Origin: Chitinophagaceae bacterium
GTDB lineage: Bacteria; Bacteroidota; Bacteroidia; Chitinophagales; Chitinophagaceae
Assembly: GCA_025363075.1 (NCBI GenBank)
Contig: JANYEP010000253.1
Location: 1 to 50,349 of the forward strand
Length of the DNA: 50,349 bases
Direction of reading: 5' to 3'
Shown piece by piece: positions 1,632-23,521 of this stretch. The notes beneath the pieces were generated by a model. The model saw nothing but the letters and a program-made list of their open reading frames with translations, searched no databases and was not told the origin of the DNA. Every line of letters begins with the position of its first letter. Within the stretch, counting starts at the first letter, position 1. A program made the translations under genes and the position numbers.

Positions 1632-1870
1632 TATAATGGTTTAAAAGTGTGTGAGCTGGAAAGATGTTGTATGTTCTGAATCAGCGAGGGAAAATTATTA
1701 TTACAAACAAAGGGCTTACAACTTGCCTTGTTATTTTGTGAGTAGAGTGCAAATGTAGGGAATTAGAATTTAATGTTTTTTTTGACACATTAATTTATAT
1801 GAGTATAAAAACAAAACTAAATTTTATAGTTATATAAATACTAATTAATTTAGCGTTAAATTTTACTTTT

Positions 1871-2305
1871 ATGAATCAAGAAACTTTATATCAATCTGCT
1901 TATAATGGAACTAAAGGTTTTACACAGCAAGACGTTAAAACAGCTAATGCCACTGGATTTGGTGCAGCAGCTGACGATTTTATGGAACGAGGAATTGACC
2001 TCAACGAAATGCTGATACGCAACAAACCTGCTACTTATTTTTTTAGAATGAATAGTAATGCAATGGAAAGTTCTGGTATTTTCAGTGGCGATGTTTTAGT
2101 TGTGGACAGAAGTATTAAAGCAACAAATAATGCTATAATTGTTGCAGCAGTTAATGGGGAATTATTTGTTAGGCGTTATAACCAGAGTTTCAAAAAAGCA
2201 GTTTTAAGTGCCGATAATAAAAGGTTTCGAGACATTGTAATAGATGAATTTTCACAGTTTCAATGTTGGGGAATTGTTACTTATGTTATTCATCAATTGC
2301 ATTAA
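1871..2305 (+). CDS. umuD: UmuD-like S24 family protein (DNA polymerase V subunit), catalytic dyad apparently lost
   Basis: Colinear with E. coli UmuD (GFGAAADDFMERGIDLNEMLI...ATYFFRMNSNAMESSGIFSGDVLVVDRS...VAAVNGELFVRRY...WGIVTYVIHQLH), directly upstream of umuC. Confidence 0.85.
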   Translation: MNQETLYQSAYNGTKGFTQQDVKTANATGFGAAADDFMERGIDLNEMLIRNKPATYFFRMNSNAMESSGIFSGDVLVVDRSIKATNNAIIVAAVNGELFVRRYNQSFKKAVLSADNKRFRDIVIDEFSQFQCWGIVTYVIHQLH

Positions 2306-2312
2306 TTTATTG

Positions 2313-3593
2313 ATGATAGCCATAGTAGATTGTAATAGTTTTTATTGTTCTTGCGAAAGATTGTTTCGACCTGATTTAGAGAACAAACCAGTTGTTGTGC
2401 TAAGCAACAATGATGGTTGCATTATTTCAAGAAGCGATGAAGCAAAAGCTTTGGGTGTTGGAATGGCTGGGCCATACTTTAAAGCAAAGCCAATTATTGA
2501 AGCAAATAATGTTGCGGTCTTTTCTTCTAATTATAATTTATATGGCGATTTAAGTTGGCGTGTGATGGAAACACTTAGAATAATGTTTAGCCAAAATAAT
2601 GTAGAAGTATATAGTGTTGATGAAGCTTTTATAAATTTAGATATAATTCCATTGGAACAAATTGAAGATGTTGCACTGCAAATAAAAAATACTGTTGAAC
2701 AATGGACAGGTATTAAAGTTTCTGTGGGAATTGCTGCAACAAAAGTGCTTGCAAAAGTTGCCAATAGATTATCTAAAAAAAATAAAGCAATAACAAATTG
2801 CATAATGGTTTTAAATACCAAAGAAAAAGTTGATGCTGCATTAAAACAAACTTCAATAGATGCAGTGTGGGGCATTGGTTTTAGCTATGCTGAAAAACTA
2901 TTGAAATACAATATCAACACGGCTTACGACCTTAGTAAAAAAGATATTACTTGGGCTAAAAAACACTTAGGTGGCGTTATTGGCATTAGGCTTATTCAAG
3001 AATTAAAAGGCATTAGAAGCATTCAAATGAAAGATGAATTACTTAATAAAAAAATGATAATGACAACAAGAATGTTTGGTGCAGCAGTTACCGATATTAA
3101 AAGTATTAAAGAAGCTGTTGCAACATACGCATCAAGAGCTGCTGAAAAGCTAAGAAGACAAAGTTGTGCAGCTAAAACTATCAGTGTTTTTTTAGTTGCA
3201 AAACAGGAGTCTCACAACGCAAGTTTTAATAGAGGCACAACTATCAATACATATACAACATTGCCAGTAGCAACATCATTAACACATCAACTTATTAAAC
3301 CAGCAATTGAACTTGTTGAACGATTATTTGAACAAGGAATGGTTTATAAAAAAGCTGGTGTAATGCTTAGTGACATTGTACTTGACACTTCTATACAAGG
3401 CAATTTATTTTTATCGGAGACTAAAAATAAAACAAGATTTTTGATGGATGTAATGGATAATATTAATTTTAGTCAAAGAGGTGATGTACTAAAATTTGCA
3501 GCATCTGGCACAACAAGAAACTGGAAAATGCAACAAAATTTTCATAGTCCTAAATACACAAGTAGATGGGATGATTTATGTGTTGTTAAATAA
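2313..3593 (+). CDS. umuC: UmuC-like Y-family DNA polymerase V catalytic subunit
   Basis: MIAIVDCNSFYCSCERLF, VVVLSNNDGCIISRSDEAKALG, YSVDEAF; QGNLF clamp-binding-like motif near the C-terminus. Start placed at internal ATG 2313 (in frame with the ORF at 2244) so it follows the umuD stop. Confidence 0.93.
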   Translation: MIAIVDCNSFYCSCERLFRPDLENKPVVVLSNNDGCIISRSDEAKALGVGMAGPYFKAKPIIEANNVAVFSSNYNLYGDLSWRVMETLRIMFSQNNVEVYSVDEAFINLDIIPLEQIEDVALQIKNTVEQWTGIKVSVGIAATKVLAKVANRLSKKNKAITNCIMVLNTKEKVDAALKQTSIDAVWGIGFSYAEKLLKYNINTAYDLSKKDITWAKKHLGGVIGIRLIQELKGIRSIQMKDELLNKKMIMTTRMFGAAVTDIKSIKEAVATYASRAAEKLRRQSCAAKTISVFLVAKQESHNASFNRGTTINTYTTLPVATSLTHQLIKPAIELVERLFEQGMVYKKAGVMLSDIVLDTSIQGNLFLSETKNKTRFLMDVMDNINFSQRGDVLKFAASGTTRNWKMQQNFHSPKYTSRWDDLCVVK

Positions 3594-14902: not shown

Positions 14903-17900
14903 TTATTCAACTATTAATTTTTTGGTTTTCTTGCCTTCATTTGTAATAATGTTAACAAGATATAACCCTTTACTTAAATTACTGATGTCAAGTTTGTTTG
15001 AACCTAAACTTAGTGTTTGAACTTTAACTTGTTTTCCAAATAAATCAGTAACAATTATTTGTCCACCTGACTGAACATATTGTGTTACAATAGTTACAGA
15101 CCCTTTTGCAGGGTTAGGAGAAAGAGTAAAGTCAACTTCAGTTTGTGATTCAATTTGCTGAACGCCTCTTGAATTTGGACAGTTAACAACAGTTAATGTT
15201 ACAGATCTGCTATTGCTACATCCATTTGCATTTGTGAAAGCATATTTAATAGTGCTTGTTCCAAATGCAGCTAATTGAATTACAGCTAAAGTTCCAGTGC
15301 TATCAGTTGCAGTTAATACTCCAGGAACGCTACTTGTCCAATGACTAGTTCCTGAACCAGAACCTGTTGCTGGATAACCTACAACTACAAACTTGTTAGG
15401 TATACCGCTTCTGTTTAAACAATATCCACCACCTGGTCCATTTTGAGGATTAGGAGTGCCAGCAGCATATTGCATACCTGGTACACCTGGTATTGGATTT
15501 ACAGTAAGGTTTTTAGTAACAGTTTTGCTGCAACCATAAACATTAGATAATTTATACAAAATTACTGCAGGATATGAAGTACCAGCACCATATGTACCTG
15601 TTACTAAACCCGTAGAAGCATTAACACTAGCGGCATTATTTGCACTACCCCAAACACCACCAGATGTTGCATCTGACAATTGTAGCGTTGCACCAATACA
15701 AAGGCTAGTTATACTACCAGCAGAAGTAATAGCTGCTGGTACAGTTTGTTCTGCAACTACATAAACCACAGAAGAACTGTTACTACAACCATTTGAGCCA
15801 TATATTCTATAGCTAATCACAGTGCTACCATTTTTGAACGTATTCACTAAACCACTTACGTTAATTTTTGCAACTGTCGTATCGCTACTACTCCAAGCTC
15901 CTCCAGTTGTAGAATCTTTCAAGAAGTTAGATGTTCCTACAGTACAGTTTGTAGTAGTACCAGTAATTGCTTTAGGAGCAGCTAATGTAGCACCAGCAGT
16001 AATAGTCATTTGAATGCTGTTGCTATTTGATGTAGAAGCTGTTTGACAAACATTAGAAGTCGTCATAACACAATATATAACATCACCATTTTGTAGTAAA
16101 GTTGTAAGATATGCATTACTTGATCCATTTTGTTTGCTAACATTATTTACAAAGAAATTATAAGTTGGATTTGTACCACCATTTGTAGCCGTTGCAAAGA
16201 AAGCAACATTAGTTCCAGCACAAGCTGTTGTTGAACTTGATTGTAAACTAACAGATGGTGTTAAAGTTGTAATAACAGAAACTGTAGCACTGCCATTCAT
16301 TGGAGTTGAACAACCAGCATTTGATGCAGTTATTGTATATGTTCCAGCAGCGGTTTGATTACCATAACTTAATACACTTCCTGTTCCAGAGATTGAAGAA
16401 GAAGTACTACCAGTAACTAATTGATAAGTATAGCCACTTTGTGAGTTAGATAATCCAACAGGAACACCATCACCTGGGAATGAACAATATGAACCTCCGC
16501 CAGTTACATTGTAAACAGTTGCAGGATTGTAAACAGTAACAGTTGCAGTTGCTGGAGTGCCAGCACATGCACTTGACCCTGGTCCAACCGCAGTAACGCT
16601 AAATGTAACAGTTGTTGTGCTAGAAGCATTTGTTAAAGTTCCACTTATGAATGAATTGCCACTTGCAGCAATACCAGTTGCAGCACTTGTATTGTTTCTT
16701 GACCAAGTGTAAGTTGTTCCAGAAACGCTGTTTGTAGTACCTAAAGTAATTGGATTAATTGCACTACCAGAGCAAATGTTTTGAGCTGCTGGTGAAGCTG
16801 TAGCCAATGGCGTAGGATTTACAGTAACTGTTGATGTTACTGAAGATCCAGCACAAGATTGTGAGCCACTACCGTTAGCTGTAATTGTGAATGTAACAGT
16901 AATTGGAGCAGCTGTTGTATTTACTAAGTTTCCAGAAACATCTCCAGTTCCACTAGCACCAATAGTTCCACTAATATCACTTGTGTGATCTCTCGTCCAA
17001 GATAAGATTGCTGTATTATCATTAGGTGATGATAATACAATATCACTAATTGAAGTACCTGAACAAACAGTTTGGCTAGCAATACTTCTTGAAGCTGTAG
17101 GAATAGCTTGAATATCAACAGTCGCAGAAGTTGAACTAGCAGTACAACCATTGAAGCTAATATTTGCACTGTAGCTGTAATTTCCTGGTGTATTGTAAGC
17201 ATAAACAGATTGTTGACTACCTCCTGTATAAGCTGAAGTATGCCCAGCATTCAAATATAATCCAGCTGTTGGTGCCCAAACAAATGTAGGTTGTAATGTA
17301 TAGTACACTTTAACATACCAATTTTTAATAGCACCTGTATCACCTGCACCATAGTCTCTTGCAATTAATTTCCAAGTACCATTTGGCGTACTAAATAAAT
17401 CACTAAATAATGTGGTATTTGATTTAAATGCTGGAGTACCAACATTATTGTTCGCATCTGGAGCATAAACACCAACGATACCACCAGGTGTAGAATCTGC
17501 AGGCAAAAATTGTGTATTAGGGTCAGCATCTGAACTAAATACAGCATAGTTATTCACATCGCCATAATTATCAGTTGCATCACCAGCTAAGAATGCCAAA
17601 TTCAATATTTTGCCATTAGGAGCTTTTACATTAATTCCTAAATCACCAGTGAAAGTGTGAGTAATTTTCATTCCAACTTCAACTTTAGTTACTAAAGCAC
17701 CAGTTGGTACGCTATTCATAATTAAATCAGTATTTACACCACCTAAACCATTAACACCATTTGTTCCAGTACCATCTGGTATAGAAACACTGATAGCACC
17801 AGAACCTGTTGTTTGGTTTCCTGTTGCAGCTGTATAATTTGCAGTTAATTGTTGCACCCCATTTTGACAAATAGATGAACTTGTTGGAGATAAACTAACA

Positions 17901-20900
17901 ACACCTGGAGAAGCTTTAACTACTACAGTTGCAGTTGTTGCAATACCAGCACAACCATTTCCTCCAGTAGCATTAGCAGTATAAGTTAATGTTTCTGAAA
18001 TAGTTGAGGTAGATGCAAAAGAACCAGAGATACTGTTTGTGCCAGTAGTAGCACCACTAACAGCAGCATTATTTCCTGTTCTAGTCCAACTGTAAGTTGT
18101 ACCTGCAACACTATTACTATTTCCTAAAACAATTGTAGTTATAGCGTCTCCACTACAAACAGTTTGAGTTGATGGTGAAGCAGTTGTTATTGGTTGATCT
18201 AAAGTATTTAAACTACCAGAAGTTGAAGCAGAACCACCACCATTTGTAACTGTGATTACTCCACTAGGAATTGCAGTAGGAATGGTGATTGTTAATTGAG
18301 TTGATGAATTTACAGTAAATACACAACTAGCCGAACCAATTGTTACGCTATTTATACCATAAAAGTTGGTACCAGTAATTGTATATACTGAACCTTCGCA
18401 AGCACTAGTTGGGTTAGGCTCATTTACAGTTGGAGCTGGAGGAGGGTCTAATTCACCAATTAAAACATCTGTACTTGCACCAGTAGATAAACTAATACCA
18501 GTAGATGAAGAAGATGTAGCACTTGGGTTAGTAGTTGCACTTCTTAAAGACCAACCACCGCCATAAACTGAATCTGCAATTAAGTAATTAGCATTACTTG
18601 TATTACCTACAAGGTTTCCACTAACATAATTAAATGTTGGCGTAATTGAAGTAAAGCCAGTAACACCACTGTTAGAAAGGGTGTATTTTCTTGCAAGATA
18701 GTTAGTTAGGCTAATTCCAGAACGTAAATATCCTAAAGCAGCAGGAGCCCCAGCAGTTGTTTTTGCTGAAACTTTACCACCACTATTTGTAGAACCTCCA
18801 ACAAAACTCATTGAAACTGGGGTATAATTTGAAGCATCTCCAATTTCAAAAGATTTGCTTGAAGTTGCACTACCAATAGTTTTTTCTAACGTTCCATTAA
18901 TATAATTGCTACTATTTGCATTGGCAATAGCAGCACTCAATCCTAATGTTAATTTATTAGAACCAGTTGCAATTTTACCATTTGTAAGAGTTAAAAAATT
19001 ATTGACAGTAGTATTACCATTGATAGTTGCTCCATTAGCATTATTTAATGTTAAATTACCGTATGTAAGTGCTGATGAAATAGTTTGAGCAGCAGTACCA
19101 TTATATAAAACAGTACTCGCATTATCAAATGTGTAATTAGCAAACCCACTAGGAAAATTACTATTACCAACACCACCTGTAGCACCACTTAAAGTTAATG
19201 AACTATTAGAACCCAAGCTAAATGTACCACTACCACTTTGAGTTCTATTTAATTGTGTACCATTAGCAATAATTACAGATGCTCCATTACTGATTATAAA
19301 GTCATTAACTATACCAGCCATTTGAGAGTTTGTAGTCATTGTATCTGTGAATGTAACTGTTGGAGTGTTACTACTACCAATTTGTACATTACCTAATCCA
19401 TAAGTAGCAGGGTTAGCTGATGTAGCAGAAGAATTAAGTGTAACTGTCTGGCTAACAGGAGCATCAAACACAAAATTGATTAAATTACCAAAGTTTAAGA
19501 ATGATTGAGGGCCAAACACAACATCACCTTTTAAATAAATTGGCCCTAAAGTAGAACCTCCAGTACCTAAAGCAGCTGTTCTGTTACCAGTTTCACCCAT
19601 AGATACTTTACCCTCAACAGTGATTACACCTGGACCACTAACAAGGTAAACCGCATCTCCGGTTACTGTAGTACTCGCAGTTCTATTAACAGCAACAGTT
19701 GCATTACCACTTATATCAAAGCTATTGCTTTGAGTAAAAACGAATAATGTTTGAACAGCAGTACCAGTAAGTGTTTGATTAATATCCAAATTATGTATTG
19801 CTACAGGAGATTTTAAATATAAATAACAAGTTGTTGTAATAGGAACTGCCGCATTTATTTGAACATCTTCACAGGCATTAGGAGTATGTCCTAAACTCCA
19901 GTTTGAAGAATTTAGCCAGTTGTTACCAGTACCTGTAAATAAAGTTCCTATGTAACTATTCGTCGTGTAACCACTACAACTCGATGTACTTGTAGAAGTT
20001 GAAGTTGTAGCACTATTAGAACCACCAGCATTATATGCTTCTACTTTAAAATAGTAAGCAGTAGAAGCTTTTAAGTTGCCAATTAGAGTATTGGTAACAT
20101 TAGCTCCAGTAGATGTTCTATAAACCCAATCTGTACCATTTAATGAAGAATAAACGTTGTAACCAAGTTCAGTAGAAGAATTGTCTGTCCAATTTACTTG
20201 TAATGAATAAGCCGTAGGAATACTAGCGGTAACTGGTGCAGGTGCAGCAGGTGCAGCAGGAGTAACATCTAAGGTAATTTCATCTAAAAACAAGAATAAA
20301 CCGCCTTGAGCACTTGATGGAGAATTACAATAGAAACCTACATAATATGTACCAGTTGTTGGTGGTGTAAATGTAGCAGCTTGTAAAACAGCAGCAGTAT
20401 TGCTTAAACCAGCAGCATCAAATATTTTATTTGCATTTGTTTTAATAGCAGATGATTGAGACGCACCATAATAGATTTGCAAGTTTTCACCACCATTTGT
20501 TAATGCATTTTGTAAGAAACTCAATGTATAACTTTGACCTGCAACAAGTTGCACCCCTGGCATAAATGCCCAGTCATTTGCAGCAACGGTAGTTGTAGTT
20601 GAATTTGCTGAATATCTCAATGCTCTTGGATTTGTTAATCCACTTACACGGCTATCAATATTACTTGAAGTCCAAGTGATACCATCTCCATTAGCATCTT
20701 CTACTAACCAACAAGTTGGTAAAGCACTTGATATCGTTGCATCAAAATTTTGATAAACAGGTACATTAACAGCACCACAACCAGTAGTAACATTACCTGT
20801 TACATAGCTACTATAACAACCATTATTAGAACGAATTCTGTAATAATATTTTGTATTAAAGTTCAAGCCACTAACACTTTTCGATAATTGGTTTATGCTA

Positions 20901-23521
20901 AATGGAGAACCACTAACAGGACTACTATAAGCAGCATCAGTTGTAACTTCTAAACTATATGTCACACTATTTGCACCACCACCTGAAGGAGCACCCCAAG
21001 CAAAATTGATTGAGTTACCAGTTGAATTTCCTACAGGAGTTGCTGTTACACTTGTTGGTATATTACTACAAGTTGTAAATGTATAAGTAAGTGGATTTGT
21101 TGTGTTGTATAATGGACCTCCAGAGCAGCCACCACCATTGTATGCAAATACAGTTACAGTATAGGTAGTATTACCAGTTAAACCTGTGATTGATACACTA
21201 CTACTAGATGATACTTGTAAAATTGTACCACTAAACCCAGCTCCTGCTGTATATGTAGTACCATTTTGAGGCACACCACTTAATGCAGAAGTAGCGTAAA
21301 CTACCAAGTAACCAGATGGTGAACCACTTGCAAAAGAGAAGGTACCATTTAAAGTTGAAGTAGTTGTTGATGAAGCTACAAAACTAGTAGCTTGTGCAGA
21401 TGGTGTAGTACAAGGATTAGCAGTTACAACAGTAAAACTTCCTGCACTTACGCTATTACCACAAGCATCTGTAATTGCAATTGACACTGTTCCGTTACTA
21501 ATTGAAGGAACTGTTGCAACTACTTCTGTTGAGTTTGTGATAGTGAATGTTGCAGTAGTACCACCGAAAGTTACAGCAGTTGCACCGCTTAAATTAGTAC
21601 CACTAATTGTAACTTGATCACCAGTTGAACCTGTAGAAATTGATTTAGAAGTATATGTTCCAGGAGATTTTCTGTCAAGCGTTCCTGTACTTGTACCAGT
21701 TCCAAAACTATTGGTTACAGATACAGTACTATTTGATGGATTTGTAGAATTACTAACTGTAGCAGTTATTTGAGACGTGCTAACAACTGTGTAAGATGCA
21801 TTTAAACCAGCTAAACTCACGGCTGTTGCTCCAGTAAAATCAGCACCATTAATGGTAACTGTAGCACCAGGGCAAGCACTACTTGGTGAGAAGCTTGTAA
21901 TTTTTGGAATGTATATAAATTCGTCTGCACCAATATCTGGAGCATTTGTGCTTCTTGTATCTCCATCAAAGTCTGTAGTTACAGACGCAATAAAAGTACC
22001 AGCATTACTTAAAGAAGCATTTGCAGCTACTGATTGTAAATGATAATCTGTTGATGAAACAAAAGTTGGATTTAAAATTACAGAATTAACATCTTTACCT
22101 GTTAGAGCCTGTATTGCTGGTATAGTAGATGCAGCTGTTTGTGAAGCTGTATAAACATTTATATTAGCCAAATGAGAATAATAAGAATTGTAGTCGCAAT
22201 TGCTTAATACATTCACTGCAGACAAGCAAGCTAATGCATATGCGTTACCACCACCATTTGCAACGCATCTAAAAATATTATTTCTAATATCAATAGAATT
22301 TGCAAGCGTAGGACCACTAATAAATAGTGCAGCAGTTACAGCACTTGAGTTGCTTAAAGAAGACGTTAAGTTAAATGTGTTGTTATAAAATTTATAACCG
22401 CCATTTACACTAGCACAGTTAATACCGTAGCAAGAAAATGAGTTAGAAATACCAACTGCCCACACATCGCCAATAAAGTTATTGAAAACAGCTATGTTAG
22501 GACTAGCAGCACTTGAGTTCAAAGTTATACCACGTGCAGACGATGCAGTACTGTACTGATATACTTTAGCAATATTATTATTATAGATATTGCCATTTAA
22601 ACTACCATTTAATACCTGAATACCGTGTACTTGAGTGGTAGCTGCGGCAGTATTGGCTACATTAAATGTATTGTTAAAAATATTAAAGCCTGATTGTGCA
22701 GAACAATAAATACCATTTAAGAAAGCACTATCTACATTATTTTTGCTAATAGACACGTTTACATCTGGTGAAGCTGTAGTTCCCAATAAAAGTATGTTAT
22801 AGTTTGCACGCCCTACTCTATTATTTGTGTAAGTGTTGTTACTGTTAGGCGTAGGCGACGCTCCGCCTAAACTAGTGCTTGAACCACTAATAATACAAGC
22901 GAAATTATTTACTGTACTACTTTGTGTAAGGTTACAGTTTTTAATTGTATTACTAGTAGCACCATTACCACTAATTGAACCTACCCAAATACCTACGACA
23001 CTTCCACCTGTGCTTGAATTTAAAATTGTTAAATCTCTAGATGAGGTACCATTGTTACTACCATCTATAGTCACATTATCAGCACCTGCGAACTTAATTA
23101 AAGCACCATTAATAGTACCACCAATTGTAGGTGTTGTACTCGCTGCTGGTTTAATGTTAATGCTCGTGTAACTTGCACTACCAGTAGCACTACTATTTAA
23201 ACTAGCAGTTGCTATTTCCGTAGTACTTGATGTAACACTAATAGCTATTACACCCGTGTAATAACCATTGTTAATAGAGTCGAAAGCAGATTTTAAAGTT
23301 GTGTGTGTGAGAGGTGTGCCACTACCTGTACCCCCAGAAGACGTAACACTAATTTGTGCATTTACCGAAAATGAGAATGCCAAGATGAACATTGCTAAAA
23401 ACCACTTGACAAATAGTCGTGATTTGATGTTACTTACTTTGGCTTCTGGTGGATTAGTTGTAAAACTATTTGTTACAACTGATTCCGTACTCTTAAGAAA
23501 AGTGTAGTTTTTCTTTCTCAT
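14903..23521 (-). CDS. Giant (2872 aa) multidomain surface/secreted protein with T9SS type A C-terminal sorting domain
   Basis: Right-handed-helix-like N-terminal region, IPT/TIG-like repeats (ITSFSPSSACPGATVTINGADF), FN3-like segments, P/Homo-B-like domain (MKITHTFTGDLGINVKAPNGK...NGTWKLIARDYGAGDTGAIKNWYVKVYY), VCSG...SWTR PKD-like repeats, C-terminal FTLSPNPAKGSVTI...LDISNLSKGLYLVNIITNEGKKTKKLIVE. Confidence 0.9.
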   Translation of the reverse strand: MRKKNYTFLKSTESVVTNSFTTNPPEAKVSNIKSRLFVKWFLAMFILAFSFSVNAQISVTSSGGTGSGTPLTHTTLKSAFDSINNGYYTGVIAISVTSSTTEIATASLNSSATGSASYTSINIKPAASTTPTIGGTINGALIKFAGADNVTIDGSNNGTSSRDLTILNSSTGGSVVGIWVGSISGNGATSNTIKNCNLTQSSTVNNFACIISGSSTSLGGASPTPNSNNTYTNNRVGRANYNILLLGTTASPDVNVSISKNNVDSAFLNGIYCSAQSGFNIFNNTFNVANTAAATTQVHGIQVLNGSLNGNIYNNNIAKVYQYSTASSARGITLNSSAASPNIAVFNNFIGDVWAVGISNSFSCYGINCASVNGGYKFYNNTFNLTSSLSNSSAVTAALFISGPTLANSIDIRNNIFRCVANGGGNAYALACLSAVNVLSNCDYNSYYSHLANINVYTASQTAASTIPAIQALTGKDVNSVILNPTFVSSTDYHLQSVAANASLSNAGTFIASVTTDFDGDTRSTNAPDIGADEFIYIPKITSFSPSSACPGATVTINGADFTGATAVSLAGLNASYTVVSTSQITATVSNSTNPSNSTVSVTNSFGTGTSTGTLDRKSPGTYTSKSISTGSTGDQVTISGTNLSGATAVTFGGTTATFTITNSTEVVATVPSISNGTVSIAITDACGNSVSAGSFTVVTANPCTTPSAQATSFVASSTTTSTLNGTFSFASGSPSGYLVVYATSALSGVPQNGTTYTAGAGFSGTILQVSSSSSVSITGLTGNTTYTVTVFAYNGGGCSGGPLYNTTNPLTYTFTTCSNIPTSVTATPVGNSTGNSINFAWGAPSGGGANSVTYSLEVTTDAAYSSPVSGSPFSINQLSKSVSGLNFNTKYYYRIRSNNGCYSSYVTGNVTTGCGAVNVPVYQNFDATISSALPTCWLVEDANGDGITWTSSNIDSRVSGLTNPRALRYSANSTTTTVAANDWAFMPGVQLVAGQSYTLSFLQNALTNGGENLQIYYGASQSSAIKTNANKIFDAAGLSNTAAVLQAATFTPPTTGTYYVGFYCNSPSSAQGGLFLFLDEITLDVTPAAPAAPAPVTASIPTAYSLQVNWTDNSSTELGYNVYSSLNGTDWVYRTSTGANVTNTLIGNLKASTAYYFKVEAYNAGGSNSATTSTSTSTSSCSGYTTNSYIGTLFTGTGNNWLNSSNWSLGHTPNACEDVQINAAVPITTTCYLYLKSPVAIHNLDINQTLTGTAVQTLFVFTQSNSFDISGNATVAVNRTASTTVTGDAVYLVSGPGVITVEGKVSMGETGNRTAALGTGGSTLGPIYLKGDVVFGPQSFLNFGNLINFVFDAPVSQTVTLNSSATSANPATYGLGNVQIGSSNTPTVTFTDTMTTNSQMAGIVNDFIISNGASVIIANGTQLNRTQSGSGTFSLGSNSSLTLSGATGGVGNSNFPSGFANYTFDNASTVLYNGTAAQTISSALTYGNLTLNNANGATINGNTTVNNFLTLTNGKIATGSNKLTLGLSAAIANANSSNYINGTLEKTIGSATSSKSFEIGDASNYTPVSMSFVGGSTNSGGKVSAKTTAGAPAALGYLRSGISLTNYLARKYTLSNSGVTGFTSITPTFNYVSGNLVGNTSNANYLIADSVYGGGWSLRSATTNPSATSSSSTGISLSTGASTDVLIGELDPPPAPTVNEPNPTSACEGSVYTITGTNFYGINSVTIGSASCVFTVNSSTQLTITIPTAIPSGVITVTNGGGSASTSGSLNTLDQPITTASPSTQTVCSGDAITTIVLGNSNSVAGTTYSWTRTGNNAAVSGATTGTNSISGSFASTSTISETLTYTANATGGNGCAGIATTATVVVKASPGVVSLSPTSSSICQNGVQQLTANYTAATGNQTTGSGAISVSIPDGTGTNGVNGLGGVNTDLIMNSVPTGALVTKVEVGMKITHTFTGDLGINVKAPNGKILNLAFLAGDATDNYGDVNNYAVFSSDADPNTQFLPADSTPGGIVGVYAPDANNNVGTPAFKSNTTLFSDLFSTPNGTWKLIARDYGAGDTGAIKNWYVKVYYTLQPTFVWAPTAGLYLNAGHTSAYTGGSQQSVYAYNTPGNYSYSANISFNGCTASSTSATVDIQAIPTASRSIASQTVCSGTSISDIVLSSPNDNTAILSWTRDHTSDISGTIGASGTGDVSGNLVNTTAAPITVTFTITANGSGSQSCAGSSVTSTVTVNPTPLATASPAAQNICSGSAINPITLGTTNSVSGTTYTWSRNNTSAATGIAASGNSFISGTLTNASSTTTVTFSVTAVGPGSSACAGTPATATVTVYNPATVYNVTGGGSYCSFPGDGVPVGLSNSQSGYTYQLVTGSTSSSISGTGSVLSYGNQTAAGTYTITASNAGCSTPMNGSATVSVITTLTPSVSLQSSSTTACAGTNVAFFATATNGGTNPTYNFFVNNVSKQNGSSNAYLTTLLQNGDVIYCVMTTSNVCQTASTSNSNSIQMTITAGATLAAPKAITGTTTNCTVGTSNFLKDSTTGGAWSSSDTTVAKINVSGLVNTFKNGSTVISYRIYGSNGCSNSSSVVYVVAEQTVPAAITSAGSITSLCIGATLQLSDATSGGVWGSANNAASVNASTGLVTGTYGAGTSYPAVILYKLSNVYGCSKTVTKNLTVNPIPGVPGMQYAAGTPNPQNGPGGGYCLNRSGIPNKFVVVGYPATGSGSGTSHWTSSVPGVLTATDSTGTLAVIQLAAFGTSTIKYAFTNANGCSNSRSVTLTVVNCPNSRGVQQIESQTEVDFTLSPNPAKGSVTIVTQYVQSGGQIIVTDLFGKQVKVQTLSLGSNKLDISNLSKGLYLVNIITNEGKKTKKLIVE

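Follow-up and report, generated by a model that had tools for sequence, protein, structure and literature searches.

Among the known systems close to the locus considered here is the Escherichia coli umuDC operon, whose products form DNA polymerase V (Pol V, UmuD'2C). In textbook accounts self-cleavage of UmuD is a second lock on SOS mutagenesis; in E. coli it removes the N-terminal 24 residues of the protein. Two laboratory variants bear on the uncut form: UmuD S60A, when paired with UmuC, gives much reduced UV mutagenesis (PMC3901139, PMC5342242); and UmuD 3A (T14A L17A F18A), which is full-length and non-cleavable, is regarded as a mimic of UmuD' (PMC5342242). Self-cleavage is also unneeded where the gene is naturally pre-cut, as in UmuD' genes of the phage P1 HumD type. 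Finally, no self-cleavage is known in the YqjX/YolD subunits of the Gram-positive YqjW/UvrX polymerases, which are small UmuD-like partners. In published models their N-terminal arm docks on the Y-family polymerase (PMC12926913, PMC6511836).

The window, meaning the whole stretch of 50,349 nucleotides that was analysed, comes from a Chitinophagaceae assembly of 3.0 Mb in 281 contigs (95.7% complete), whose relatives also belong to this family of soil and freshwater bacteria. It carries a umuD-like gene followed after 7 bp by umuC (Table 1), and also a very large ORF of 2872 aa at 14903-23521 (-). The umuDC locus and its clade resemble the E. coli system in the S24/UmuD fold, the operon, predicted SOS control, and a UmuC with a DUF4113 tail and clamp-like motif; they differ in having no Ser/Lys dyad and no Cys-Gly or Ala-Gly site, in a conserved tail of fixed length, in an Arg for Gly in the RecA-NT motif of UmuC, and in an SOS box of the Bacteroidetes LexA-like type. 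The likeness to the laboratory variants is likewise partial. UmuD 3A keeps the dyad and frees its arm by mutations in the tail, whereas the clade has lost the dyad and conserves the tail; S60A carries the same Ser-to-Ala change, which in this clade is fixed alongside a co-evolved UmuC. Pre-cut UmuD' has no tail, whereas the window protein has a conserved one of 28 residues and scores 72 against the HumD model NF051876, below the cut-off of 120. YqjX/YolD are not homologous by sequence, while the clade partner is a true S24/UmuD homologue.

Table 1. Positions of the features discussed, in the window unless a locus is named.
Feature	Position	Strand	Remark
CTAATTAATTTAG, exact CTAA-N5-TTAG SOS box, Bacteroidetes LexA-like type	1841..1853	+	17 bp before umuD ATG
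umuD-like gene, inactive protease dyad	1871..2305	+	144 aa
N-terminal tail, residues 1-28, kept under constraint	1871..1954	+	identity, gaps, dN/dS
Thr28-Gly29 at E. coli Cys24-Gly25 scissile bond	1952..1957 (act gga)	+	phmmer alignment
Ala64 at catalytic Ser60	2060..2062 (gca)	+	gap-free phmmer alignment
Arg101 at catalytic Lys97	2171..2173 (agg)	+	phmmer alignment, 8gmt K97A as position marker
umuC, Y-family polymerase, same operon as umuD	2313..3593	+	426 aa, ATG at 2313
UmuC VDCNSFY, keeping the first catalytic Asp and the steric-gate region	2325..2345	+
UmuC YSVDEAF, catalytic Asp-Glu, retained	2610..2630	+
UmuC QGNLF, clamp-binding-like motif	3396..3410	+	clamp binding inferred from motif
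UmuC RecA-NT-like motif in DUF4113	3441..3500	+	helix-end Gly = Arg389 (aga 3477-3479)
XRE-S24 repressor, probable LexA-like SOS repressor	L002:1375-2145 (G000 contig C147)		box just upstream
Pre-cut UmuD' gene adjoining umuC	L046:3748-4119
Pre-cut UmuD' gene adjoining umuC	L048:3378-3755
Pre-cut UmuD' gene adjoining umuC	L050:3368-3772
Pre-cut UmuD' gene adjoining umuC	L052:3284-3688
Pre-cut UmuD' gene adjoining umuC	L066:3114-3494
Pre-cut UmuD' gene adjoining umuC	L069:3399-3776

Cleavage residues of the UmuD homologue

The window protein matches Pfam S24 (E 4.8e-19) and, at 125 bits, exceeds the homology cut-off of 110 for the NCBIfam UmuD subfamily model NF007621. In the PDB, phmmer aligns it with E. 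coli UmuD' 1umu (E 4.4e-17) without gaps through the dyad region. The original prediction had aligned it with E. coli UmuD by eye, setting Ala at Ser60, Arg at Lys97 and Thr-Gly at Cys-Gly, and had called it a pseudo-protease; the gap-free phmmer alignment reproduces these assignments, and the Lys97 column is fixed by the UmuD K97A mutant 8gmt, in which TVAKLQ lies over FVRRYN of the window. Structure prediction and superposition, proposed at the time as a check, recovered the UmuD' fold: the core of the AF2 model has pLDDT >90, and its top Foldseek match is E. coli UmuD' 1ay9 (E 3.8e-9, TM 0.90 on the target).

The Ser-Lys dyad is absent from the window UmuD (A64/R101), as it is across a Chitinophagaceae clade in which Arg101 is invariant (56/56). 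The Cys/Ala-Gly scissile bond is missing as well, P1 in the clade being Thr in 51/57 members and otherwise Asn or Ser, at a position that is Ala-Gly in most other Bacteroidia UmuDs. The possibility raised earlier of a dyad built on nearby serines did not hold up when a replacement was sought in the clade alignment. There neither S62 nor S67/S68 is conserved. One serine alone, S81, is invariant, and Ser/Lys UmuDs conserve it just as strongly; with no clade-specific conserved Ser, an alternative Ser/Lys dyad in the window UmuD was rejected. The alignment thus predicts that this UmuD is incapable of RecA*-stimulated self-cleavage, and the joint absence of dyad and cleavage site would make the two proteins a UmuDC variant outside the autoproteolytic UmuD family. 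The name 'autoproteolytic subunit', which NF007621 gives to the whole clade, is an annotation error, the dyad being found in no member.

Clade-wide constraint and predicted SOS control

Among the first relatives collected, Ala and Arg occurred in 43/43. After UmuDs of the wider family and class had been added, 58 distinct clade proteins were read, comprising 56 Ala/Arg, one Thr/Arg, one Ser/Arg and no Ser/Lys, so that the proposed check for a clade sharing the S-to-A and K-to-R changes came out positive. In a tree of 117 UmuDs the clade and three divergent relatives stand behind a 100/100 branch with no Ser/Lys protein among them. UmuDs retrieved at 23 loci of other families in the class have, without exception, the Ser/Lys dyad and a cleavage site of the type Ala-Gly-FPSP or similar. 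In a 395-genome sample of the class, UmuD scores drop from 208 bits for members of the family to 124 beyond it. Of 200 family genomes sampled, about 95 encode the clade UmuD (E <1e-40) with open frames conserved, and about 84 of these 95 have no second UmuD. Sequencing error or a strain-specific mutation was rejected, because the dyad loss is clade-wide and is present also in a named isolate, Niastella yeongjuensis DSM 17621 (genome L043), whose UmuD is Ala/Arg. Open frames, clade-wide dyad loss and a dN/dS that is low in both tail and core (window against its close relative L004) point to purifying selection rather than decay.

The locus organisation is also shared, umuC lying close behind umuD on the same strand in 45/58 clade loci and nearby in most others. 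In L092, L093, L094 and L095 a radical-SAM (SplB-like) gene lies 3' of umuD, with umuC nearby on the opposite strand. Viral contigs, phages and plasmids searched with UmuD gave only matches below 60% identity, the best of those listed being annotated as ordinary UmuDs; with no close relative there, a mobile or phage origin of the window umuD was rejected.

Constraint extends over the segment that canonical UmuD discards. Within the clade, mean pairwise identity is almost the same in the tail (55%) and the core (56%), and gaps make up 0.7% of the tail; canonical Bacteroidia UmuDs have 18.7% (31% gaps) in the tail and 48.8% in the core. Overall divergence is unequal between the groups, but the tail-to-core ratios of 0.98 and 0.38 are each taken within one group. 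The tail is 28 residues long in 52/57 members; G13, Q19 and A27 do not vary at all, and K15 hardly does. Between the window and L004 the tail has dN 0.016 and dS 0.415. At the former cleavage point Gly29-Phe30 is conserved in the clade. The AF2 monomer gives low confidence for the window tail, as would be expected if this tail folds on a partner; the confidence is too low to place the tail, and since a canonical control tail scores low too, AF2 does not tell the two kinds of tail apart. A segment that is conserved and unstructured alone suggests a partner-binding arm.

Bacteroidetes lack a classical LexA and instead have XRE-S24 repressors that target either CTAA-N5-TTAG or GGA-N5-TCC (PMC8565304). 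Each of the 58 clade umuD genes is preceded, at no more than 200 bp, by an exact CTAA-N5-TTAG box, where shuffled upstream sequence would give 0.46; in most members the box stands at -31 to -33. The window holds one exact box, with 1.55 expected by chance, and the genome 33 sites; most of the others inspected fall within coding regions and resemble chance matches. In the source genome boxes stand before umuD, before recA and just before an XRE-S24 repressor gene, the product of which is the only other S24 protein found there and is intact (Ala-Gly, GDSM, VYKR). This gene probably encodes the Bacteroidetes LexA-like SOS repressor. From the box in every clade gene and its recurrence before recA and the repressor, transcriptional SOS control of umuDC is strongly predicted.

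The partner UmuC

The clade UmuCs form one clade of their own (SH-aLRT 100) and keep VDCN[SN]FY, YSVDE and a QxNLF-type motif. The window UmuC has both the Y-family catalytic residues and the DUF4113 tail, with the C-terminal UmuD-binding tail kept; it scores 355 bits with the full-length NCBIfam UmuC model, below the cut-off of 431. A RecA-NT-like motif, which binds RecA in E. coli (PMC6511836, PMC11791011), is recognisable as DN[IV]NFS[QM]R[DN]D, without the helix-end glycine. Of the 46 clade UmuCs that cover this residue, 45 have Arg and one has Lys; it is Gly in 43/44 canonical partners and 6/6 partners of pre-cut UmuD'. RecA of the source genome keeps its own glycine (DYGKGSV). The altered residue could weaken activation by RecA. 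The original prediction of an apparently intact UmuC therefore stands for the catalytic and clamp-like motifs, and not for the RecA-NT glycine. The source genome encodes a second Y-family polymerase (C40).

A probable full-length Pol V and rival readings

Taken together, the lost dyad and cleavage site and the kept fold, tail, operon, UmuC motifs and SOS box are best read as an uncleaved, full-length Pol V under transcriptional control, an account that is probably correct. The umuDC operon would be silent until DNA damage removes the LexA-like S24 repressor, whereupon full-length UmuD, as the working form, would pair directly with UmuC without UmuD-to-UmuD' maturation. Rather than block the polymerase, the 28-residue tail would stay docked on UmuC as a permanent arm, continuing the segment GFGAAADDY.., which in E. 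coli UmuD' sits in the UmuC cleft. The switch of RecA-stimulated UmuD self-cleavage would be permanently removed, and the remaining control would lie in transcription and in contacts of RecA, the clamp or the tail. UmuD 3A sets a precedent for an uncleaved working form, and the published Pol V model in which the UmuD' arm docks in UmuC (PMC11791011) supports the arm; the E. coli S60A phenotype counts against the account, since by simple analogy it predicts inhibition. More tentatively, the lineage may be wholly uncoupled from licensing by the RecA filament, UmuD self-cleavage having been lost and the RecA-NT motif rebuilt around the Gly-to-Arg change; the tail would then be an essential activator arm that partly replaces RecA, and transcription the sole damage-sensing step.

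The original prediction had allowed three options: a Pol V that runs without cleavage, a permanent UmuD-type regulator, and cleavage in trans by another S24 protease. The first fits best. For the second, uncleavable UmuD would act as a permanent brake or checkpoint, restraining UmuC, DinB or the replicase after damage and so giving accurate rather than mutagenic tolerance. We consider this unlikely. In its favour, S60A lowers UV mutagenesis in E. coli, where the full-length protein also has a checkpoint role (PMC3901139), the conserved tail is the inhibitory part of full-length E. coli UmuD (PMC5342242), and the second Y-family polymerase is at hand. Yet a UmuC that keeps all its catalytic and clamp motifs and co-evolves as one clade would be odd without DNA synthesis, and 84/95 genomes have no other UmuD to supply UmuD'. 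That scarcity also weighs on cleavage in trans, for which no partner UmuD was found in the source genome as assembled or in most clade genomes. There is precedent for UmuD' still being made by another S24 protein, the arms of E. coli UmuD S60A being cut by a competent UmuD partner (PMC5342242), and the conserved Gly29-Phe30 marks the former site; trimming by a general protease (ClpXP, Lon) would have the same outcome. However, the only other S24 protein in the genome is the XRE repressor (a missed gene being possible at 95.7% completeness), P1 is mostly Thr in place of the usual Ala, and conservation spans the entire tail, which is not so in disposable tails. Tail removal is therefore distinctly improbable.

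The same constraint along the whole tail opposes a further route to UmuD', an internal start codon that would make cleavage unneeded. In-frame ATG, GTG or TTG codons between 13 and about 36 do occur in 15/57 members, mostly GTG at codon 22, and natural pre-cut genes starting at MGFPSP are known in the family; the remaining 42/57 and the window gene have no such codon, so that an internal start was rejected for the window UmuD and is very improbable as a general explanation. Ordinary decay, in which a neutral pseudoprotease is on its way to loss, has a negligible chance of being right. A few divergent members are indeed degenerating (L055, L056, L084), but conserved open frames in about 95/200 family genomes, low dN/dS, the box in 58/58 and Arg101 in 56/56 speak against it.

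In the literature searched, which lay mostly outside subscription journals, no natural lineage of full-length, dyad-less UmuD was found; the accessible part of PMC8565304 uses UmuD homologues solely for motif finding and makes no comment there on dyads. A widespread natural lineage without the UmuD lock yet with the rest of the system kept suggests that the lock is not obligatory, and the clade offers a natural system in which to ask what Pol V gains from the UmuD tail and from RecA.

A built-in comparison comes from the six pre-cut UmuD' genes found in Chitinophagaceae, which start M-GFPSP or M-AFPSP and have escaped cleavage by another route, in part independently. Lys97 is replaced by Arg in 6/6 and Ser60 by Ala or Asn in two, as dyad decay would follow once cleavage is unnecessary. 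They occupy at least two places in the UmuD tree. All six of their genomes also carry a full-length inactive UmuD, which does not hold for most canonical UmuDs of the family, in what is a small and related sample; a link between the two kinds of gene is possible. The divergent or degenerating relatives L055, L056 and L084, with NAV or NNT, for example, at the dyad and a frame of 236 aa in L084, suggest that the inactive UmuD has been lost in some lineages.
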